This document shows, piece by piece, positions 50,484 through 62,081 of a stretch of DNA of 64,000 bases. The stretch's first letter is position 1, and the number at the start of each line of letters is the position of its first letter. The DNA comes from Acidobacteriota bacterium (GTDB lineage Bacteria; Acidobacteriota; Vicinamibacteria; Vicinamibacterales; UBA2999), in contig VFZN01000002.1 of the NCBI GenBank assembly GCA_016871195.1, positions 62,001 through 126,000 on the forward strand, in the 5' to 3' direction. The position numbers were made by a program, and so were the translations under genes. A model generated the notes under the pieces. That model had not been told where the DNA came from and made no database searches. It saw only the letters and a list, made by a program, of their open reading frames with translations.

Positions 50484-51722
50484 ATGACCTTCCGACTCGG
50501 CTTCCTCGTAGTAGTGGCGATGACAGCTCTGTGGGTGATTCCGTCCGGGGTGAGCGCACAGCCGGCCCCCGCGGCCCTGACGCTGTCAGATGCCCTGACG
50601 CGGGCGCGCCGCGAGGCCCCGGAACTGGCCGCCAGCCAGGCACGCATCGAGGCCGCGCGTCTGGCCGTGCCCGAGGCCGGCCGCTGGCTCAATCCGACCG
50701 CCGAGTTCCGCGCCGAGAATATGCTCTCCGGGGTGTCGCGGACGCGACTGCCCCTCGATGTCTTCGCCGAAGTCACACAGGTCGTTGAACTCGGCGGCAA
50801 GCGCGCCGCCCGGCAGCGCCTTGCCGATGCGGGTCGGGCCTCGGAAGAGGCGGCCCAGCCGCTCATCTGGCTGGCGGTGCAGCGCCAGGTCATCGCCGAC
50901 TATCTCGACGCCCTGCGCCACCGCGATCGCACCGCCACCCATGAGGCCCAGCGCACGGACCTGACCGAAGCCGTACGGGTGCTCGACCGTCGCGTGACGG
51001 TGGGCGTCACGGCCGAAGCCGAACTGCTGCGCATGCGCACCGAACTGGCCCGCGCCACGGTCGAGGCCACGCGCAGCGGCATCACGGCGCGGCGCGCCCT
51101 CTCACTGCTCGCCGCACGCACCGGGGCCGAGGTCGGCCTCGAGGCGCTCTCGATGCCCGGCATGCCTGTGCTGCCAGACACCACAGTCGACGCCGCTCTC
51201 GAGCGACGACCCGATGTGCTGGCGGCGCGGCAGACGGTCAACACCTCCGTACAGATTCTGCGCCTTGAAGATGCGCGACGTGTGCCCGACCCTGCGGTCA
51301 ATGCCGGCTACAAGCGCACGGCCGGGTTCGACACGGCCCTCATGACCTTCACCCTGCCGCTGCCACTCTTCAACCGCAACCAGGCCGCGCGCACGCTGGC
51401 CCTCGGTGCGGTCAACAGCGCCCGTCAGGAACTGGCGGCCACCGAACGTCGCGCCCGCGGTGAAGTCACCGCGACGCGCCTCGTGGCCGAGCGGCTCATC
51501 GCCCATGCCCGCGAGCTGCAGACCACCCTCGTGGCGCCCGCGCTTGCCGCTCGCGATGCCGCCCGTGCTGCCTTCGCCTCGGGGGCGCTGGATGTGATGC
51601 GCCTGGTCGACGCCGAGCGTGTCTACACCGACGCCCGACTGGTTACGCTCGAAATTGAGGTCGATGCCCTCGCCGCTGCCATCGAGGCCCGGCTGTCGGC
51701 TGGAGAGGATCCGCTGCCATGA
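50484..51722 (+). CDS. czcC: Outer-membrane channel of heavy-metal RND efflux (CzcC/TolC family)
   Basis: A 412-aa TolC-family protein with a signal peptide (ends SGVSAQ). The two outer-membrane-efflux repeats are rich in heptad helices (LSDALTRARREAPELAASQARIEAARL; later AVNSARQELAATERRARGEV). The sequence EVTQVVELGGKRAARQRLA is characteristic of CzcC/CusC-like members. It forms the exit duct of the CBA pump. Its stop overlaps the next start (ATGA). Confidence 0.92.
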   Translation: MTFRLGFLVVVAMTALWVIPSGVSAQPAPAALTLSDALTRARREAPELAASQARIEAARLAVPEAGRWLNPTAEFRAENMLSGVSRTRLPLDVFAEVTQVVELGGKRAARQRLADAGRASEEAAQPLIWLAVQRQVIADYLDALRHRDRTATHEAQRTDLTEAVRVLDRRVTVGVTAEAELLRMRTELARATVEATRSGITARRALSLLAARTGAEVGLEALSMPGMPVLPDTTVDAALERRPDVLAARQTVNTSVQILRLEDARRVPDPAVNAGYKRTAGFDTALMTFTLPLPLFNRNQAARTLALGAVNSARQELAATERRARGEVTATRLVAERLIAHARELQTTLVAPALAARDAARAAFASGALDVMRLVDAERVYTDARLVTLEIEVDALAAAIEARLSAGEDPLP

Positions 51723-52930
51723 CATACCCGCTGACCCGCACCGCCCTGGCCCTGGCCCTGGCCCTGATCGGCCTCACCGTCGCCTGCGGAGGCGGAGGCG
51801 TGGCCGACACGGAGACCGACACCCCGAACGCCAGTGCCCCGCGCACCTCGGTCGACGTGAGCGAGGCCGATGCCACCGCCGCCGGCATCACCGCTGCCGC
51901 CGTGCGCCTCATCGAACGCAGTGAACCTCTCACCGTTCCGGGTACGGTCGGGTTCGACGAACGGCGCGTTGCCCGCATCGGCGCACGCGTCGAGGGCGTC
52001 GTCGACGATGTGCGGGTGCAGGTGGGTGAACGGGTAACGGCAGGGGCAGTGCTGGCACACCTGCACAGCCACGCCACGCACGACGCCTGGGCCGCCTACT
52101 TCACCGCCATCAGCGGACGCCGCCGCAGCGAGACCGGGCTGGCCTATGCGCGCACGGCCGAATCGCGGGCGGCACAGCTCGTCAGGGACAAGGCTCTGTC
52201 GCCCCAGGAACTCGAACGGGCACAGACCGAGCGACAGGCCGCCGAACAGGCCCTGCGCGCGGCGCAGGCGGAAGTCACGCGCACCGAACAGGAACTGCGC
52301 CACTACGACATCGTGCCGCGCGAAGATGCCGACCCGGTCACCAACGACGAAGTGCCAGTCACGGCGCCGATCGCCGGTTCGGTGATCGAGCGCCTGATCA
52401 CGCCGGGGGCCGCCGTCACGCCCGGTACACCGCTGCTTGTCGTCGCCGATCTCAGCCGGCTGTGGATCACCGCAGAGATCGACGAGGCCCGCATCGGCCG
52501 CATCGTCACGGGACGTGAGGTGACGATCACCACGCCGGCCTATCCCGGCGAATCATTCACGGGCACGCTGGCCGCCGTCGGCGATGTCATCAATCCAGAG
52601 ACACGCCGCGTCACCCTGCGCATCGAGGTGCCGAATGCCGATCGGCGCCTCAAGCCGCAGATGTTCGTGACCCTCACACTCGGGGCCTCAGCCCCGCGTC
52701 GCGTGGCCGTGGTGCCCTCCGCTGCCGTGCAGTCCCTGGAAGGGGAAACCGTAGTGTTCGTCCGCGCCGCGCCCAACCGCTACGACCGCCGGTCGGTGCG
52801 CGTCGGCACCGATCTCAACGGCGAAATCGAAATTGTCGACGGCCTGCGCGAGGGCGACATGGTCGCGACCACCGGGGCCTTCCTGCTCAAGTCCGAGCTG
52901 TCGAAGCCCGCCGGCGGCGAGGAGGAATAG
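51719..52930 (+). CDS. czcB: Periplasmic adaptor of heavy-metal RND efflux (CzcB family)
   Basis: Membrane-fusion protein, 403 aa, with an N-terminal lipoprotein/signal segment (LIGLTVACGGG). Order: barrel-sandwich half (GTVGFDERRVARIGARVEGVVDDVRVQVGERV), a coiled-coil hairpin (ARTAESRAAQLVRDK...ALRAAQAEVTRTEQEL), the second lipoyl half (VTAPIAGSVIERLITPGAAV), a beta-barrel and a membrane-proximal domain. Links the inner-membrane pump to CzcC. It carries no His-rich N-terminal extension, so metal specificity is unclear. Confidence 0.92.
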   Translation: MTYPLTRTALALALALIGLTVACGGGGVADTETDTPNASAPRTSVDVSEADATAAGITAAAVRLIERSEPLTVPGTVGFDERRVARIGARVEGVVDDVRVQVGERVTAGAVLAHLHSHATHDAWAAYFTAISGRRRSETGLAYARTAESRAAQLVRDKALSPQELERAQTERQAAEQALRAAQAEVTRTEQELRHYDIVPREDADPVTNDEVPVTAPIAGSVIERLITPGAAVTPGTPLLVVADLSRLWITAEIDEARIGRIVTGREVTITTPAYPGESFTGTLAAVGDVINPETRRVTLRIEVPNADRRLKPQMFVTLTLGASAPRRVAVVPSAAVQSLEGETVVFVRAAPNRYDRRSVRVGTDLNGEIEIVDGLREGDMVATTGAFLLKSELSKPAGGEEE

Positions 52931-52931
52931 C

Positions 52932-55900
52932 GTGGGCCTCGTCGAGCGCTTCGTCAACGCGACCCTCGGCCAGCGCGCCTTCGTGCTGCTGGCGCTGGCC
53001 ATGCTGATTGTGACCGGCGTCTTCGCGTTCCGCGATCTGTCGGTGGAAGCCTTTCCCGACCTGACGAACAATCAGGTCGTCGTCATCACCGAGGCGCCCA
53101 GCCTGGCGGCCACCGAGGTCGAGCAGCGGGTCTCGTATCCGATCGAGACGGTGCTCATGGGCGTGCCCGGTGCGCAGGAGGTGCGATCACTCTCGAAGTT
53201 CGGGTTGTCGATCGTCACCGTTGTGTTCCGTGACGATGTGGCCACCTATTTTGCGCGCCAGCTGGTGACCGAACGGCTGGCCGATGTGCGGTCGCGCATC
53301 CCCGAGGGCCTGCAGCCCGTGCTCGGCCCGGTCGCCACGGCCTTCGGCGAAATCTACCAGTATGTCGTCACCGGCGAGGGCATCGACCCGATGGTGGCCA
53401 AGACGACGCACGACTGGGACATCCGCAACCGGTTGCGCTCGATCACGGGCGTGAGCGAGATCAATTCGTGGGGTGGCCTGACCAAACAGTTTCAGGTGAT
53501 CGTCGACCCGGTGCGGCTCGAGAAGCACGGGCTGGCGCTCGGCGACGTGCTGCAGGCCGTGGCTGACAGCAACCAGTCGTTCAGTGGAGGCTTCATCGAG
53601 TATCAGTCGGAACGCTACACCGTGCGCGGCGTCGGCCTGCTCACGGGGCTGTCCGACCTCGAGCGGGTCGTGCTCAAGTCGCCCGGCGGCAGCCCGGTGC
53701 TGCTGCGTGATGTCGCTACCATCACCGTGGCGCCGATGCCCCGCAACGGTGCCGTCACACGCAACGGCCAGGGTGAAGTGGTGGGGGGCATGGTCATCAT
53801 GCTCAAGGGCGAAAATGCCCTCGACCTGTCAGACCGCGTGCGCGCACGTATGGACGATATCGCCGCGTCGCTGCCTCAGGGCATGCGCATCGAAAAGTTC
53901 TATGACCAGCGTGATGTCATCGACCGCACCACGGCAACGCTCACCGGAAACCTGCTCGAGGGCAGCCTGCTCGTGGTGGTCGTGCTGTTCTTCTTCCTGC
54001 GCGACGTGCGGGCCGCCCTCATCGTCGCGGCCGTCATCCCTTTGTCGATGCTCGTCGGCTTCATCGGCATGCGCCTGTTCGGCGTCTCGGCCAACCTCAT
54101 GTCGCTCGGCGCCATCGACTTCGGCCTGCTGGTCGATGGCGCCGTCGTGATGATGGAGAACTTTGTCAGGCGCCGGTCGCACGTCGGCGATCGGCTGGCA
54201 CACGCCGCCGGCGAGCATGCCGCGGAGGCCCGCCTCGCGCTGTTCCGCGGCGCGGCCATCGAAGTGGCACGCCCCGTGCTGTTCGGCGTGCTCATCATCA
54301 TCGCGGTCTACCTGCCGATCTTCACGCTCAAGGGGCTCGAGGGGAAGATGTTCCGCCCCATGGCCATCACGGTCTGCTCGGCACTCTTCGGGTCGCTGCT
54401 GCTGTCGCTGACCGGCGTGCCCGTCGTCTCGTCGTTCCTGCTGCGGCTGGAGGGCCACCATGCCGAGGAGCCCTGGTTCGTCCGCGTGCGCCAGGCCTAC
54501 GAGCGCCTGCTCGCCGGCTGCATGCGCCGCAGCGCGGCGACGGTCGCCACCGCGCTGGTCGTCGTCTCGGTGGCGCTCGCGTCGGTGCCGTTCCTGGGCA
54601 CCGAGTTCATGCCGAAGCTCGACGAAGGGTCCATCCTGATCGAAACGCGCAAGCTGCCCTCGGTCTCGCTCGAAGAATCGGTGGCCATCTCGACGCGCGT
54701 CGAGCAGATCCTGCTCCGCGACTTCAAGGAGGTCTCGCAGATCGTCACCAAGATGGGCCGCCCTGACCTGGCGACCGAGGCCATGGGCATCTATCAGGGT
54801 GACGTGTATGTGCTGCTGCATTCGGAAGACTCGTGGGAAAGCGGACGCACCAAGGAGGCCCTGATCGACGCCATGGCCGCCTCGCTCGCGCACGTGCCCG
54901 GGCTGTCGGTCAACTTCACCCAGCCGATGGCGATGCGCCTCGACGAGGTCGTGTCCGGCATCAAGGCCGACGTGGCCGTCAAGGTCTTCGGGCCCGACTC
55001 GGCGGTGCTCGAGCGCATCGGCGCGCAGGTGCTCTCGGTGGTCGAGGGGGTCAGCGGGGCCGCCGATGCACAGGTCGAAATCCTGTCGGGAGCCGCCCAG
55101 CTCGAGATCACGCTCGACCGCGACGCCATTGCCCGCTACGGCCTGCACGTCACCGATGTCCAGGAGGTGGTCGAAGCCGCGATCGGGGGCCGTCGCGCCA
55201 GCGAGCTGCTCGATGGGGCGCGCCGCTTTCCGATTGTGATCCGCTATCCCGCTGGCGCACGCGAAAGCGCCGAGACCATCGGCGCCCTGACGGTGACCGC
55301 CCCCGGCGGTGCACGCGTGCCGCTGAGCCGGCTCGCCCGCATCCGTCTTGCGGCAACCCCCGAAGCCGTCACCCACGAGAATGCCGAGAAGCGCCTCGTC
55401 GTCCAGACCAACGTGCGCGGTCGCGACGTCGGCAGCTTCGTGGCCGAGGCGCAGCGCCGTCTCGCCACCGAGATCACCATCCCGTCGGGCTACTACATCA
55501 CCTGGGGCGGCCAGTTCGAGAACCAGCAGCGCGCCACGGCGCGACTGGCAATCGTGGTGCCGCTGTCGCTGGCCATCATCTTTCTGCTGCTGATGGTCAC
55601 CTTCGGCAAGGTGCGCTGGTCGCTGCTGATCTTGCTCAACGTGCCGTTTGCGGCCGTGGGCGGCATCGCCGCGCTGTGGCTGCGCCAGCTCAATCTCAAC
55701 CTGTCGGCGTCGGTGGGTTTCATCGCGCTCTTCGGCGTCGCGGTGCTCAACGGGGTGGTGATGCTCGCGGCCATCAAGGCCCTGCGCGAAGAGGAAGGGC
55801 TTGACGTGCACGCCGCCACCCTCGCGGGCGCCGCCACCCGGCTCAAGCCCGTGCTGATGACCGCCACGGTCGCGGCCATCGGCTTCATGCCCATGATGCT

Positions 55901-56057
55901 GTCGCAGGGGGCCGGTGCCGAGGTGCAGCGTCCCCTGGCCACCGTCGTCGTCGGGGGCATCATCACGTCGACCCTGCTGACGCTGATTGTGCTGCCCACG
56001 GTGTACGACATGATGGAACGGCGCATCGCCCGTCGCGAGGCGCGGACGACCCCCTGA
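52932..56057 (+). CDS. czcA: Heavy-metal efflux RND pump (CzcA/CusA family)
   Basis: Proton-driven inner-membrane pump of 1041 aa with twelve helices and two large periplasmic loops. The HME-RND signature in helix 4, DFGLLVDGAVVMMEN (Asp396, Asp402), identifies metal transport rather than drug transport. Other family blocks are FPDLTNNQVVVITEAPSLAATEVEQ, INSWGGLTKQF and RFPIVIRYP. Cation specificity (Co/Zn/Cd against Cu/Ag) is not assigned. The start is GTG 52932 with GGAGGAA just upstream, one base after the adaptor stop. Confidence 0.95.
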   Translation: MGLVERFVNATLGQRAFVLLALAMLIVTGVFAFRDLSVEAFPDLTNNQVVVITEAPSLAATEVEQRVSYPIETVLMGVPGAQEVRSLSKFGLSIVTVVFRDDVATYFARQLVTERLADVRSRIPEGLQPVLGPVATAFGEIYQYVVTGEGIDPMVAKTTHDWDIRNRLRSITGVSEINSWGGLTKQFQVIVDPVRLEKHGLALGDVLQAVADSNQSFSGGFIEYQSERYTVRGVGLLTGLSDLERVVLKSPGGSPVLLRDVATITVAPMPRNGAVTRNGQGEVVGGMVIMLKGENALDLSDRVRARMDDIAASLPQGMRIEKFYDQRDVIDRTTATLTGNLLEGSLLVVVVLFFFLRDVRAALIVAAVIPLSMLVGFIGMRLFGVSANLMSLGAIDFGLLVDGAVVMMENFVRRRSHVGDRLAHAAGEHAAEARLALFRGAAIEVARPVLFGVLIIIAVYLPIFTLKGLEGKMFRPMAITVCSALFGSLLLSLTGVPVVSSFLLRLEGHHAEEPWFVRVRQAYERLLAGCMRRSAATVATALVVVSVALASVPFLGTEFMPKLDEGSILIETRKLPSVSLEESVAISTRVEQILLRDFKEVSQIVTKMGRPDLATEAMGIYQGDVYVLLHSEDSWESGRTKEALIDAMAASLAHVPGLSVNFTQPMAMRLDEVVSGIKADVAVKVFGPDSAVLERIGAQVLSVVEGVSGAADAQVEILSGAAQLEITLDRDAIARYGLHVTDVQEVVEAAIGGRRASELLDGARRFPIVIRYPAGARESAETIGALTVTAPGGARVPLSRLARIRLAATPEAVTHENAEKRLVVQTNVRGRDVGSFVAEAQRRLATEITIPSGYYITWGGQFENQQRATARLAIVVPLSLAIIFLLLMVTFGKVRWSLLILLNVPFAAVGGIAALWLRQLNLNLSASVGFIALFGVAVLNGVVMLAAIKALREEEGLDVHAATLAGAATRLKPVLMTATVAAIGFMPMMLSQGAGAEVQRPLATVVVGGIITSTLLTLIVLPTVYDMMERRIARREARTTP

Positions 56058-56061
56058 CCTC

Positions 56062-56748
56062 ATGCGCATACTCGTCGTCGAGGACGACCCGGAGATCAGC
56101 CGCTTTCTCATCCGCGGCCTCACGGAAGAGCATCACAGCGTGGTGCTGCGTACCGACGGCCACGATGTGGCCGCACTGGTCGCCGCCGACGAGTTCGATG
56201 CCATCGTGCTCGATATCATGCTGCCTGGCCAGGACGGGTTTGCCGTCTGCCGGGCCGTGCGCCACGCAGGCCTCGACACGCCCATCATCATGGTGACGGC
56301 GCGCGATGATGTGCGCGACCGCGTGACGGGTCTCGATGAAGGCGCCGACGATTACCTGACCAAGCCCTTTGCCTTCGATGAGCTGCTCGCACGCCTCAGG
56401 GCACTCGCCCGGCGGGGACGCACGCGGCACCTGACGCACCTGCTGCACTATGGCCCGCTCACCGTCGACCCGGTGGCCCACACCGTCGCCGTCGACGGCT
56501 ACGCGCTGCCGCTGACCGCCACCGAATACCGGCTGGCCAAGTTCCTCGTGCGGCGCGCCGAGGCCATCGTCACGCGCGACCAGCTCGCGCAGCATGTGTG
56601 GGGCGGCGCCTACGACCCGCTGTCGAACAACGCCGATGTGTATGTGGGCTACCTCCGCCGCAAGCTGCAGGCCCACACCGCAGACCCGCTGATTCACACC
56701 GTGCGCGGGCTCGGCTATATGCTCAAGCGGCAGGTCCCGGCCTCATGA
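56062..56748 (+). CDS. OmpR-family response regulator of the metal efflux operon
   Basis: A 228-aa regulator. The receiver has Glu7-Asp8-Asp9, the phospho-acceptor Asp51 (IVLDIMLPGQDGF), VTARDD and TKPFAFDELLAR. The winged-helix C-terminus ends NNADVYVGYLRRKLQ...VRGLGYMLKR. Similar to CzcR/CusR. It lies 4 bases after the pump gene and overlaps the kinase by 4 bases, so it is co-expressed with the pump and probably activates this operon. Confidence 0.94.
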   Translation: MRILVVEDDPEISRFLIRGLTEEHHSVVLRTDGHDVAALVAADEFDAIVLDIMLPGQDGFAVCRAVRHAGLDTPIIMVTARDDVRDRVTGLDEGADDYLTKPFAFDELLARLRALARRGRTRHLTHLLHYGPLTVDPVAHTVAVDGYALPLTATEYRLAKFLVRRAEAIVTRDQLAQHVWGGAYDPLSNNADVYVGYLRRKLQAHTADPLIHTVRGLGYMLKRQVPAS

Positions 56749-58196
56749 TCCATCCCGCGTGGCCCACCGGATTCCGTGCCCGCCTGACGCTGCGCTGGAC
56801 GATCGCCGCCGGTGCACTCATCGGCCTGGCCAACATCGCCATCTATGCGGCTGCGCACACCTACGTCTACCGTTGGTTTGACCACAACGTGCGCACCATC
56901 GGCGCAACGGAAGCCGCGTCATCGACGGACGGCAGCGAAGGCGTCCACCTGCACGAGCGCGCCTTCGATCAGCTCGAGGGCGGCGCGTTCACGGAAAAGT
57001 TTGTGCAGATCTACGATCGGCGGGGCCGACTCGTGCTGGCCTCGTCGGCGCTCGGGCCTGACAGCACCACACTGCCGCCCGCGACACTTGCCGACGCGTT
57101 TACCGGACGGACGCCGATGCTCTGGGTGCGTGTCCTGGGCCGCAACGCGCGCGTGGTGGTGCTCACCGAAACGCGCGATGCCGACGCCTATGCTATCGCC
57201 GTCGGTCTGTTCGCCGACGATGTGCAGGACGGGCTGGCCAGTCTGGCGTGGCTGCTGCTGGGGGTCTGGCTCGTGTCTATCGCAGCGACGTCGGCGATTG
57301 GCGCCTCACTGGCCTCGCAGGCGCTCGACCCGGTGGCGCGCATCACCGACCGCGCCGCCTGGATTGCCCGGGGCAACTTCGACGCGCGCCTCGACCTGCC
57401 GACCGTGCAGGACGAGCTGGGCCGCATGACACAGCTGCTCAACTCGATGCTCGATCGGCTGCAGCACGCGGTCGAAGCCAATCGCCGCTTTGCCGCGGAT
57501 GCCTCGCACGAGCTGCGGGGACCGCTGACGGCCATGGCCGGCGAGCTGGATGTGGCCCTGAGACATCCGCGTACTGCAAAGAGCTATGCCGAGACGCTAC
57601 AGCATGTGCGCGGCCGCGTCGCATCGCTGACCGAGCTGACGGAAGACCTCATTCTGCTCGTACGTTCGCAGGAAGGGTCACGCGATGTGGTGCTGCGCGA
57701 GGTTGCGCTGACGCCCCTCATCACCGACGCCTTTGCTAGGGTCAGCCCGCTGGCCGAGGCACGCAGCGTACGGCTGTCTCACGACATTCCGGACGGCGTG
57801 CACCTCTACGCCGACCCCGCCCTCATCACCCGCGTCCTCGACAACGTGATCGCCAACGCGGTGCTCTACAACCGCGACCAGGGAGACGTGCGCGTGTCGA
57901 CCCGCGTGGACGAGCCCGAGGGCGACGCGTGGGCCACGCCGCTCGTCATCGTCGAGGTGTCAGACACGGGCGCGGGCATTCCCGCCGACGAACAGGAACG
58001 GATTTTCACGCGTTTTCACAGGCTCGACCAGTCGCGCGCGCGGCATACCGGCGGCAGCGGACTCGGACTCGCCATCTGCCGGGAGGTGCTGGGCCTGCTC
58101 GGCGGCAGCATCCGCGTGGCTCGCAGCGACGCGACCGGCACCACGCTCGAAGTGCGCATGCCCGGCGTCATACTGCCCGTCACTGCGACCGTCTGA
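56745..58196 (+). CDS. Sensor histidine kinase of the metal efflux operon
   Basis: A 483-aa membrane kinase. TM helix 1 is ~18-38, a periplasmic sensor loop of ~120 residues (40-160) follows, then TM2 ~165-190 and a HAMP domain (PVARITDRAAWIARGNFDARLDL). The phospho-accepting His255 is in ADASHELRGPL, and the ATPase domain ends SDTGAGIPADEQERIFTRF and GGSGLGLAIC. The H-box has Arg-Gly in place of the common Lys-Thr. CzcS/CusS-like; the loop presumably senses the metal. Confidence 0.93.
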   Translation: MIHPAWPTGFRARLTLRWTIAAGALIGLANIAIYAAAHTYVYRWFDHNVRTIGATEAASSTDGSEGVHLHERAFDQLEGGAFTEKFVQIYDRRGRLVLASSALGPDSTTLPPATLADAFTGRTPMLWVRVLGRNARVVVLTETRDADAYAIAVGLFADDVQDGLASLAWLLLGVWLVSIAATSAIGASLASQALDPVARITDRAAWIARGNFDARLDLPTVQDELGRMTQLLNSMLDRLQHAVEANRRFAADASHELRGPLTAMAGELDVALRHPRTAKSYAETLQHVRGRVASLTELTEDLILLVRSQEGSRDVVLREVALTPLITDAFARVSPLAEARSVRLSHDIPDGVHLYADPALITRVLDNVIANAVLYNRDQGDVRVSTRVDEPEGDAWATPLVIVEVSDTGAGIPADEQERIFTRFHRLDQSRARHTGGSGLGLAICREVLGLLGGSIRVARSDATGTTLEVRMPGVILPVTATV

Positions 58197-58268
58197 CTCG
58201 CCGCATCCACACCCGTACAGAAGTATTACAGTCACGCGGCGGCCGCCTTGCTACCGTTTGGCGTATCT

Positions 58269-59141
58269 ATGGAACGCTTCGACGCTGCTCGTATCTATGG
58301 TCGCCGGTTCTCGAACGGAATCAACTGGGGCACCAGCATCGCCATGGCGGCGTATCACGTGGGGGCGGCCGCCGCGCTCTTTTTCTGGGACAGCGGTGCG
58401 TTCCTCGTCGCTGCCCTGCTGTATTACGTGTCCCTCAGCTGGGGCATCGGGATGGGCTACCACCGCCTCCTGACCCATCGGGGATACAAGACGCCTCGGT
58501 GGGTGGAGTACTTCCTGACCCTCTGCGGAATGCTGGCCCTCGAGGGTGGCCCCATTTTCTGGGTGTCGACTCACCGCATTCACCACCAGCACTCGGACCA
58601 CGACGGTGATCCCCACACGCCGCACGAAGGCACCTACTGGGCGCACGTCGGCTGGGTCCTCAGCGGCCGTTCGCTGCATCACGATGCGGACATGCTGAGC
58701 CGGTATGCCCCCGACCTGGCTAGAAATCCGGTCCATGTGGCCTTCACGCGCTGGCACTGGATACCCCAGGTCGTGGTCGGACTGTTGCTGCTGGGGCTGG
58801 GTGGCGTGCCATATCTGCTGTGGGGTACGTTTTTCCGCACCACATTCGGTCTCCACGCCACATGGCTGGTCAACTCGGCGAGCCACCTCTGGGGTTCGCG
58901 CCGGTTCCAGACGCGCGATGACTCGAGAAACAACTGGTGGGTGGCGTTGCTCAGCTGGGGCGAAGGCTGGCACAACAACCATCACGCGCATCCGGTATCG
59001 GCCCGTCACGGGCTGGCCTGGTACGAACTCGACATGAATTACCTGGCCATCCGGGTGCTGGCGATGCTGGGTCTGGTCTGGGACGTCAAAGTTGCCCGGC
59101 TTGACGGCGACCGTGCCGACGAGGCGCGCGCCGCAGCCTAG
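58269..59141 (+). CDS. Acyl-CoA/acyl-lipid delta-9-type fatty acid desaturase
   Basis: Integral-membrane di-iron desaturase, 290 aa. All three His boxes are present: HRLLTH (65-70), HRIHH (102-106) and HNNHH (235-239), with about four membrane helices. WGIGMGYHRLLTHRGYKTP and FWVSTHRIHHQHSD are typical of stearoyl-CoA-type desaturases that introduce a cis double bond to keep membranes fluid. ATG 58269 is chosen; a TACCGT at 58252-58257 gives a leader of only ~5 bases. Immediately upstream of a kinase/regulator pair. Confidence 0.94.
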   Translation: MERFDAARIYGRRFSNGINWGTSIAMAAYHVGAAAALFFWDSGAFLVAALLYYVSLSWGIGMGYHRLLTHRGYKTPRWVEYFLTLCGMLALEGGPIFWVSTHRIHHQHSDHDGDPHTPHEGTYWAHVGWVLSGRSLHHDADMLSRYAPDLARNPVHVAFTRWHWIPQVVVGLLLLGLGGVPYLLWGTFFRTTFGLHATWLVNSASHLWGSRRFQTRDDSRNNWWVALLSWGEGWHNNHHAHPVSARHGLAWYELDMNYLAIRVLAMLGLVWDVKVARLDGDRADEARAAA

Positions 59142-59219
59142 CAGGGACGGGCAACGGCCGTGGCAGGCACCGCACCGTGGCCCCATTCTCCGGGGAACCG
59201 ACCCACACCCGATCTCTGG

Positions 59220-59225
59220 TACCGT
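59220..59225 (+). promoter_or_regulatory. -10 box, leaderless promoter of the kinase gene
   Basis: TACCGT, 6 bases before the GTG start at 59232; no ribosome-binding sequence. Confidence 0.5.
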
Positions 59226-59231
59226 GGGCGG

Positions 59232-60137
59232 GTGAGCACGTTCCCCGGCCGCCAGACGGCCACCGCCGTCTTCATCGCCCTCTGCGTCATCCTCGTCGCC
59301 GCCGCCATCTCACTCAACGTGGGGTGGATTCTCGTGAATGGCCGGCGCGTGCTGCCGCTGGTGCTCGGCATCCTGGCGTTCATGTTGATCATCGCCGGGC
59401 TGGTGGTCTTCACGGTGTTTCTCATTCGCGAAATCAGGCGCAACGATCAGCACGACGCCTTCATCAACGCCGTCACCCACGAACTCAAGACGCCCATCGC
59501 CTCGATTCGCCTCTACCTGGAAACCCTGCAGGCCCGAGACGTCAGCGAGGAGCAGCGGCGCACCTTCTATCAGGTGATGCTGTCCGACACCGACCGCCTG
59601 CAGCGCACCGTCGAGGAAGTGCTCAAGGCCGGCGCGGCCGGCCAGAAGGGCCGCTATGCCCAGCGCGCTCCGGTCGACCTGGCCACGCTCGCGCGCGAGT
59701 GCGTCGACACCGCACGACTCCGCCATCGCCTGCCCGACTCGGCGGTCGCCCTCGACCTCCAGGTGGTAGGACCCGCAGCCACCATCGTCGGGGATGCCGA
59801 CGACCTGCGAACCGCGCTGTCGAACCTGCTCGATAACGCCGTGAAGTATTCGCCCGACGGCGTCATGGTACGCGTCGATGTCTCGGCACCGGATGCCGAA
59901 CACGTGCGGGTGCGGGTGCACGATCAGGGCGTCGGCATTCCGCCGTCGCAGCTGACGCGCATCTTCAACCGGTTCTACCGCTTCCAGATGAAGCAGTACT
60001 CGGTCAAGGGCACCGGCCTCGGGCTCTTCCTGGTACGGGCCATCGCCCGGCAGCACGGTGGCAAGGTCACCGCCAGCAGCCAGGGCGCCGGCACCGGATC
60101 GACCTTCACCCTCGAACTGCCCCGCACCCACGCATGA
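59232..60137 (+). CDS. Intramembrane-sensing sensor histidine kinase
   Basis: A 301-aa kinase with a minimal sensor. TM1 (~11-35) and TM2 (~40-66) are joined by only about four residues (NGRR), so there is no periplasmic domain and no HAMP. Phospho-accepting His83 is in NAVTHELKTPIASI, then N-box NLLDNAVKYSPDG and G-boxes DQGVGIPPSQL and KGTGLGLFLV. Kinases of this shape sense within or next to the membrane. It follows the desaturase by 90 bases and overlaps its regulator by 4 bases. The GTG start is set by a -10 box 6 bases upstream. Confidence 0.9.
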   Translation: MSTFPGRQTATAVFIALCVILVAAAISLNVGWILVNGRRVLPLVLGILAFMLIIAGLVVFTVFLIREIRRNDQHDAFINAVTHELKTPIASIRLYLETLQARDVSEEQRRTFYQVMLSDTDRLQRTVEEVLKAGAAGQKGRYAQRAPVDLATLARECVDTARLRHRLPDSAVALDLQVVGPAATIVGDADDLRTALSNLLDNAVKYSPDGVMVRVDVSAPDAEHVRVRVHDQGVGIPPSQLTRIFNRFYRFQMKQYSVKGTGLGLFLVRAIARQHGGKVTASSQGAGTGSTFTLELPRTHA

Positions 60138-60886
60138 GCCACCTCTTCGTCGTCGAGGACGAGCATCACCTCGCCGAAGGCCTGCGCTTCAATCTGGAAG
60201 CCGACGGCTACGCCGTCATGGTCGAAGACAACGGCACCCGTGCCCTCCAGCGCCTGATCGCCGCCGGCGACTCGGTCGATGCGGTGATCCTCGATGTCAT
60301 GCTGCCGGGCCTCAGCGGATTCGAAGTCGTGCGAGGCATGCGCGACGCGGGACTCTACACGCCGGTGCTCATGCTGACGGCCCGCGGCCGGTCTGAAGAC
60401 GTGCTGCAGGGGTTCGAGGCCGGTGCCGACGACTATCTGCCCAAGCCATTCGAGCTGGCGATTCTGCTGGCCCGTGTCCGGGGATTGCTCCGCCGGCGAC
60501 AGTGGGCACAGCGCGCGCAGGTCGAGGGCGGCCGGCATGCCGTGATGACCTTCCATGGACGCACGCTCGATCTCGATGCGCTGGAATTGCGGGTGGGCCC
60601 CACCACGCATCACCTGACGCAGATGGAATCGGACCTGCTCGCTTACCTGATTCGGAATGCCGGCAGGGCCGTCTCGCGCAAGGCGATTCTCGAGGATGTG
60701 TGGGCCCTGCGCGAAGACACCGATACCCGGGCCATCGACAACTTCATCGTGCGGCTGCGCCGCTATATCGAAGACGACCCCGGTGATCCCGCCCTGCTGC
60801 TCACCGTCAGGGGCATCGGGTACAAGCTGATGCCCGACGACCCGACGGCAGCGGTCACTGCAGCGCCAGCAGCAGGAACGCCGTAA
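60134..60886 (+). CDS. OmpR-family response regulator
   Basis: A 250-aa regulator paired with the preceding kinase. Glu8-Asp9 and the phospho-acceptor Asp54 (VILDVMLPGLSGFE), LTARGRSED and LPKPFELAILLARV are all standard. The winged-helix domain ends RAIDNFIVRLRRYIEDDP...VRGIGYKLMP. Targets are unknown, with the neighbouring desaturase the obvious candidate. The last 32 bases lie antisense to the end of the phytase-like gene. Confidence 0.93.
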   Translation: MSHLFVVEDEHHLAEGLRFNLEADGYAVMVEDNGTRALQRLIAAGDSVDAVILDVMLPGLSGFEVVRGMRDAGLYTPVLMLTARGRSEDVLQGFEAGADDYLPKPFELAILLARVRGLLRRRQWAQRAQVEGGRHAVMTFHGRTLDLDALELRVGPTTHHLTQMESDLLAYLIRNAGRAVSRKAILEDVWALREDTDTRAIDNFIVRLRRYIEDDPGDPALLLTVRGIGYKLMPDDPTAAVTAAPAAGTP

Positions 60887-62081
60887 CCTGCGTCTGACGG
60901 AAGTTGTCGTCAGAGACCACGATCACCGTGCGGCGCCCATCGGGCAGACGCGGTCCCTCGGCCATGCCTTCGAAATTGTCGAGCAGCGCCAGCGGCGCGG
61001 GCAGCGACGCACGCACCGTGTCGAGGTCGAGCACCAGCCGCTTCGACACGGCACGCACGCCAGTCGCCTCCCGCAGCGACCGGCCAGACACATCGTCCGC
61101 ACCGTCGACACGCACGTCGAAGATCTGAATCACGTTCCTGACGCGGCGTGTTTCGGGATTGATGAGGCACGCGCGCTCGAGTGACAGCAGGCGGTCGGCG
61201 TCGAGGGCCAGCAACTCGACGAGGCCCAGCTCGCCATCGTCGCAAATCGCCCCGAAGCCCTCGCGCAGCGGCGTGGCGTCGAGAGGATAGGCCCACTGCC
61301 GGCCCATGCGCCAGCCCCCGTCCGATGGCTGCCACTCGACCAGCCGTGACAGCCCCCCCTGCCCGCCGCCGAATGGCCGCCCATTCCGCACCGACGCCGG
61401 CGCATCGCGGTAGAGCGGCTGCTCAAGCCCGGCCACCAGGCGCCCATCGGGCCAGCGGGCCAGCGCCTCGGCACCCTGGTTGTCCCGCACGCCGCCCGCC
61501 GTCTCACCCAGGTCGAACGGTGCCCCCCACGGCACCACCTGCGACACCACCGCGTCCGCAGCGAACATCAGGAACGATGTCGGCCAGTCGCCCGTCACCC
61601 GCCCGCGGCCAGAGACCGCAGCCGACGCCCCTGCGGGCGGCTGAAAGCGGTGCCCTTCCTCCGTGGCCACAAACCGGCCATCACCCAGCGCGACGATGGC
61701 CTCGAGGTCGGCGTGCTGCACAAGCCGGGCATCGACGCCCGGGCCCGCGACTGTCGGCGTGACCGATACAGGTGCCACCTGCAGGCGTCCGTTCCACTGG
61801 ATGTCGAACCACGCGATGCGCGACAGCGCCCCGTCGTCAATAACCGCCGCGTAGCGACCCGAGCGCGGGTCGCGCGTCAGTCCGGAGAGGCTGCCGATGA
61901 CCTCGGCGCGGCCACTGCCGCCCGGCGTGCTCGGCCAGACGACGGCGTCGACCAGCGTGAGGGAGGGTGGTGCCACGGGAACGGCAGCGCGCGTCTGCCT
62001 GGGGGCGCATGACACCGTCAGCAGGGCCCCCAGCAGCGCCGCGGTCAGGGCCCGTGTTCGTGGCACAATCCTCAGACGCAC
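60855..62081 (-). CDS. Phytase-like (esterase-like activity of phytase) lipoprotein
   Basis: A 408-aa lipoprotein (lipobox LLTVSCAP) with a phytase-like beta-propeller domain. Landmarks are EVIGSLSGLTRDPRSGRYAAVIDDG, HADLEAIVALGDGRFVATEEGHR, NQGAEALARWPDGRLVAGLEQP and the end NFEGMAEGPRLPDGRRTVIVVSDDNF, which are diagnostic of this family. Activity on a phosphate ester is suggested by the family name but unproven. The start is GTG 62081; a second GTG 15 bases in is possible. Divergent from the DinB gene. Confidence 0.85.
   Translation of the reverse strand: MRLRIVPRTRALTAALLGALLTVSCAPRQTRAAVPVAPPSLTLVDAVVWPSTPGGSGRAEVIGSLSGLTRDPRSGRYAAVIDDGALSRIAWFDIQWNGRLQVAPVSVTPTVAGPGVDARLVQHADLEAIVALGDGRFVATEEGHRFQPPAGASAAVSGRGRVTGDWPTSFLMFAADAVVSQVVPWGAPFDLGETAGGVRDNQGAEALARWPDGRLVAGLEQPLYRDAPASVRNGRPFGGGQGGLSRLVEWQPSDGGWRMGRQWAYPLDATPLREGFGAICDDGELGLVELLALDADRLLSLERACLINPETRRVRNVIQIFDVRVDGADDVSGRSLREATGVRAVSKRLVLDLDTVRASLPAPLALLDNFEGMAEGPRLPDGRRTVIVVSDDNFRQTQVTAFLLLALQ

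Follow-up and report, generated by a model that had tools for sequence, protein, structure and literature searches.

A conserved desaturase, two-helix histidine kinase, and OmpR-type regulator form a candidate membrane-homeostasis circuit in Acidobacteriota

In Bacillus subtilis, the DesK/DesR-des system, which belongs with the HisKA_3/LuxR-type systems, joins a membrane kinase without an extracytoplasmic sensor domain to a regulator for one desaturase. The Hik33 system of Synechocystis has two transmembrane (TM) helices and an OmpR-type regulator, and OmpR-type partners are likewise found with the kinases BceS/NsaS and SaeS. DesK spans the membrane with five TM helices (PMC8534201), and polar residues where its TM1 begins form a "sunken buoy" (PMC6879721). 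Hik33-Rre26/RpaB (NblS) is believed to detect how rigid the membrane becomes when cells cool (PMC3264485), and the RpaB box, HLR1, is a TTACA-type direct repeat (PMC6331805). In BceS/NsaS and SaeS, a very short extracytoplasmic link connects the two TM helices, and WalK carries an extracellular PAS domain, a HAMP domain, and a cytoplasmic PAS domain (PMC8534201); the consensus operator of WalR is TGTWAH-N5-TGTWAH (PMC4168254). In the literature searched, no paper was found on how Acidobacteriota sense the state of their membranes.

The window analyzed here, a stretch of 64,000 nucleotides from an Acidobacteriota genome, contains a trio of desaturase, kinase, and regulator genes (Table 1), of which no earlier description was found in the literature searched, although such an absence is no proof. 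Open reading frame calls and Pfam searches confirmed the genes named in the preliminary description, i.e., a complete three-His-box desaturase, a kinase, and an OmpR-type regulator, all on the forward strand. The start of the regulator overlaps the stop of the kinase by 4 nt. Directly upstream, positions 50484 to 58196 encode an outer membrane efflux protein, an AcrB/CzcA-type RND pump, and a CopRS/CztRS-like two-component pair, which together are probably a heavy-metal efflux cluster. We rejected the trio as part of this cluster, since the efflux genes are mostly not conserved with it. Convergent to the regulator, a phytase-like gene (esterase-like activity of phytase; 60855 to 62081, reverse strand) is conserved no further than the genus and some relatives.

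Table 1. Positions of the trio and of its predicted promoter elements in the window
Feature	Position	Strand	Length	Remarks
Predicted regulator box GTACAGAAGTATTACAG	58215..58231	+		Direct repeat TTACA(G), 11-bp period
Extended -10-like element TGCTACCGT	58249..58257	+		17 bp past box; no -35 at normal spacing
Membrane fatty-acid desaturase	58269..59141	+	290 aa	Acyl-CoA desaturase/SCD1-like family; ORF call and Pfam
Intramembrane-sensing histidine kinase	59232..60137	+	301 aa	H83 in VTHELKTP; best start GTG 59232
Kinase TM hairpin	59247..59429	+		TM1 residues 6-36, 4-residue turn, TM2 residues 41-66
OmpR/PhoB-type response regulator	60134..60886	+	250 aa	Phospho-acceptor D54

The desaturase was assigned to FA_desaturase by Pfam (5e-22), and its profile matched the solved acyl-CoA desaturases 4ymk (5e-42) and 4zyo (1e-39). 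Its histidine boxes HRLxTH, HRxHHQ, and HNNHH were invariant among 18 homologues; three such boxes and an integral-membrane FA_desaturase domain, as found here, are the features of membrane acyl desaturases (SCD1/DesC-like). The regulator comprises Response_reg (5e-24) and Trans_reg_C (3e-22) domains, and its phospho-acceptor was invariant in the alignment.

In the kinase, Pfam detected HisKA (PF00512; 1e-12) and HATPase_c (2e-30) and found no HAMP, HisKA_3, PAS, or sensor domain; GAF and periplasmic domains are absent as well. The lack of HAMP is informative because the adjacent kinase (56598 to 58196) scored HAMP in the identical run. An AlphaFold model of moderate confidence (18 aligned sequences; mean pLDDT 76, TM blocks 59 to 76) showed the first helix and the turn followed by a single unbroken helix of residues 41 to 101, in which TM2 runs into the phospho-acceptor helix. 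Model and domain search thus agreed with the previously proposed topology of two TM helices joined by about four residues, with neither a sensor domain nor HAMP. This is the defining anatomy of intramembrane-sensing histidine kinases (two TM helices, a very short extracytoplasmic linker, and no sensor domain), and the layout was kept in 41 aligned kinases. A possible start at 59160 was set aside in favor of the GTG start. Conserved TM columns were A25, L28, N29, and W32 in TM1 and G46, F50, I54, G56, T61, and L64 in TM2, as well as E67 just past TM2; Asn29, Trp32, Gly46, Gly56, and Thr61 were invariant or nearly so. Mean pairwise identity was 61% for the TM region, 69% for DHp, and 67% for CA, so that conservation of the TM region comes close to that of the catalytic core, although conservation by itself is silent on what is sensed.

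Kinase orthologues were found in 43 of 59 relatives. Order-level comparison was based on 40 kinase loci with room upstream (window included), 39 of which had a desaturase upstream on the same strand; L051 was the exception, and in L055 one gene was inserted between the two. The regulator followed directly after the kinase in nearly all of these loci. L047 stops at a contig edge, and L052 (G041) has desaturase, kinase, and box together with no regulator adjoining the kinase; here, the regulator should be located elsewhere in the genome. In a phylum-wide sample, 41 of 199 genomes carried the kinase, each as a single copy, and in 39 of the 41 a desaturase of the family lay no more than 4 kb upstream on the same strand (immediately adjacent in 29). 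The two exceptions were G127, with kinase and desaturases on separate contigs and the kinase ∼1 kb from its contig end, and G120, with the weakest kinase match and neither an adjoining desaturase nor the box. Among named genomes, including Terriglobia, Bryobacterales, and Pyrinomonadaceae, all 11 Acidobacteriota loci at 48 to 69% kinase identity fit the arrangement (L099 is cut by a contig edge). The genes that separate desaturase from kinase in some Terriglobia were unrelated to one another from genome to genome, and genes farther from the trio varied between genera. Weaker kinase matches (≤42% identity, mostly from other phyla) had a desaturase in the fetched flank in only one case, a planctomycete with the gene order kinase-regulator-desaturase; at this locus (L108, 4366 to 7321), the desaturase is preceded by a related repeat, TTGACAGAACTTTGACA. 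The arrangement of the trio is far beyond chance, because it recurs across the phylum yet is nearly absent beside the weaker kinase matches. The conservation in relatives anticipated by the preliminary description was thereby found. We also looked for the contrary pattern, a kinase regularly without a desaturase or next to an unrelated conserved transporter, and did not encounter it.

A search for a shared repeat upstream of the desaturase, likewise suggested beforehand, yielded the box, a 17-bp direct repeat TTACAG-N5-TTACAG (consensus KKACAnAAsTnTTACA). It was present within 3 mismatches and in one orientation in all 38 order-level desaturase promoters, and within 2 mismatches in 27 of 28 desaturase promoters elsewhere in the phylum, always pointing toward the desaturase gene. 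For comparison, 39 of 2,000 random 300-bp segments from the same loci reached ≤2 mismatches, some of which overlap true sites. No consensus sigma-70 promoter was found at the desaturase, and among the 38 order-level promoters, 32 had a 17-bp spacer between the box and TGNTA and 3 had an 18-bp spacer. From the missing -35 element and the fixed distance between box and extended -10, we infer that the regulator at the box would take the place of the -35. The box as an ordinary -35 was rejected, because 20 bp and not ∼17 bp separate the end of the second TTACAG from the -10 hexamer and because the box is a repeat whose occurrence follows the kinase. A desaturase start at 58248 was set aside because it abuts the -10. 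In the window, only 11 bases separate the end of the -10 hexamer (58257) from the ATG (58269), which suggests that the desaturase mRNA may be nearly leaderless; the distance from box to start is 60 to 180 bp in other families. Two boxes ∼40 bp apart in one desaturase promoter were observed at G241:C38:68937-68991 and G104:C3:509619-509676, and a tandem desaturase pair behind a single box was observed in two genomes from another class of the phylum (L183 and L205).

Allowing up to 2 mismatches, the box pattern had a single match in the window's genome, and it was absent at the two other desaturases of that genome. The exact pattern matched 37 times in the 59 relatives, compared to 2 matches for a reversed control. 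Within the 199-genome sample, the box was found in 37 of 41 genomes with the kinase versus 12 of 158 without it (Fisher, 3e-25), and several kinase genomes without an exact match had a near match at the desaturase. Conversely, the box was absent from the desaturases of five genomes that have a close desaturase and no kinase. The genome G058 has no desaturase beside the kinase, yet a desaturase 37 kb away bears the box, and so does a second copy of the desaturase in G029. Extra matches were few and near the background of kinase-less genomes, leaving a broad regulon unsupported. In three relatives (L200, 942; L201, 904; L202, 3898), the box lies before, but points away from, a gene for a B12-binding radical SAM protein that weakly resembles lipid-modifying radical SAM enzymes, those for hopanoids among them. 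A fused gene for acetyl-CoA carboxylase carboxyltransferase (accD-accA-like) has a match ∼180 bp ahead of it (L204, 3984; G042), possibly a second lipid target or chance, and one further match (L209, 1085; G194) is beside a divergent second, different-looking desaturase-like gene.

The system resembles DesK/DesR in combining a membrane kinase without an extracytoplasmic sensor domain with a regulator for one desaturase, control of which is predicted here. It differs in having two TM helices, a HisKA domain, an OmpR/PhoB-type regulator, and another DNA box, so that the initial view of a common logic built from different families held up (HisKA, not HisKA_3; OmpR type, not LuxR type). Membership in the DesK/DesR system was rejected on kinase type (not HisKA_3), TM count (two), and regulator type (not LuxR/NarL); a parallel between the "sunken buoy" of DesK and TM1 of the window kinase is tempting as an analogy. 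The further suggestion of an independent system stood relative to DesK but not in general, since Hik33-Rre26/RpaB of cyanobacteria provides an OmpR-type precedent for a response to membrane rigidity and cold. Hik33-Rre26, the nearest such precedent, is alike in its two TM helices and OmpR-type regulator; however, Hik33 has HAMP and PAS domains and serves many cold and light genes, whereas both domains are missing from the window kinase, whose system has essentially a single target. HLR1 sites, for example TTACAATCGTTTACAA, come close to the window box yet differ from it in spacing and sequence. In contrast to BceS/NsaS and SaeS, which have transporter or accessory protein partners and envelope-stress or virulence targets, the constant partner of the window kinase is a desaturase: at the conserved loci, no ABC transporter or other conserved accessory protein was found nearby, and the only constant neighbors were desaturase and regulator. 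With WalKR/VicRK, the regulator class matches, and the box, which reads TGTAAT-N5-TGTAA on the opposite strand, fits the WalR operator. This fit, like the TTACA half-sites of HLR1, is expected for the OmpR/PhoB regulator class. WalK, however, is a multidomain kinase with a cell wall regulon, whereas the window kinase consists, in 301 aa, of a catalytic core without HAMP or PAS.

We propose that the trio constitutes a dedicated membrane-homeostasis circuit, a reading that we consider likely as a whole. The kinase dimer, a TM hairpin fused straight to the DHp/catalytic core, would read the order, thickness, or unsaturation of the bilayer and phosphorylate the OmpR-type regulator. The phosphorylated regulator would bind the TTACAG-N5-TTACAG box, substituting for the absent -35, and, as promoter anatomy and comparative genomics suggest, activate the desaturase promoter. 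Double bonds added to acyl chains by the desaturase would render the membrane fluid and thus close a negative feedback loop.

The steps of this circuit differ in strength. Control of the desaturase by the regulator through the box is very probable from the sequence data, with the proviso that another PhoB-class regulator could recognize an identical half-site. That the trio is merely an inherited or chance neighborhood devoid of regulatory meaning is hardly credible: gene distances do fit vertical descent, but the trio persists while flanking genes change between genera, the planctomycete has a different gene order, the box stays with the desaturase when this is separated from the kinase (G058), and the association of box and kinase contradicts such a reading. 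Chance neighborhood was rejected on conservation together with the box. The promoter anatomy makes activation a good deal more probable than repression. OmpR/PhoB-class regulators such as RpaB can repress from the core promoter (PMC6331805), and the signal would then lift repression of the desaturase; this is unlikely here, where no -35 lies at normal spacing and the box occupies an activator-replacement position at fixed spacing to the extended -10.

For a kinase without any sensor domain, the membrane itself is the simplest input, and we lean toward a bilayer property sensed in the TM hairpin as its own input, although a lipophilic molecule or some other membrane protein may be what the kinase reads. 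A different envelope or nutrient signal (antimicrobials, phosphate, oxygen) might also drive the kinase, with the desaturase merely its effector. The catalytic half scored best against PnpS/PhoR-type models, albeit far under their cut-offs, and RegX3 and MtrA were the closest solved relatives of the regulator. Yet PAS, GAF, and periplasmic domains are all missing from the kinase, genes for phosphate functions or transporters are not conserved alongside it, and essentially one box target per genome, a desaturase, is narrow for a general stress system, which makes such a cue improbable. The desaturase protein or its membrane neighborhood might instead be a co-sensor, the kinase being blind alone and reading occupancy or activity of the enzyme by contact, similar to BceS. 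Reliance on accessory membrane proteins is frequent among intramembrane kinases (PMC8534201), and the desaturase, itself integral to the membrane, is almost always encoded right beside the kinase. In addition, distances for desaturase and kinase are closely correlated (r = 0.91). We nevertheless judge co-sensing quite improbable, as the transcriptional link via the box already accounts for the linkage and as the distances of all three genes correlate, as predicted by shared descent. Returning to the bilayer-sensing circuit, its strongest form, a phylum-wide, one-target fluidity thermostat in which the bare two-helix hairpin alone reads bilayer order or thickness, is tentative and falls a little short of an even chance; the Asn29/Trp32 pair near one end of TM1 is possibly the route of such a reading.

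Acidobacteriota are abundant in soil. The circuit proposed for them is simple, with one sensor, one regulator, essentially one promoter, and a precise predicted operator, and therefore lends itself to direct testing. Were sensing to reside in the TM hairpin alone, the hairpin would offer a minimal model of how a protein reads bilayer properties, and the kinase, as a solution parallel to DesK, would perhaps be the smallest among lipid-order sensor kinases.
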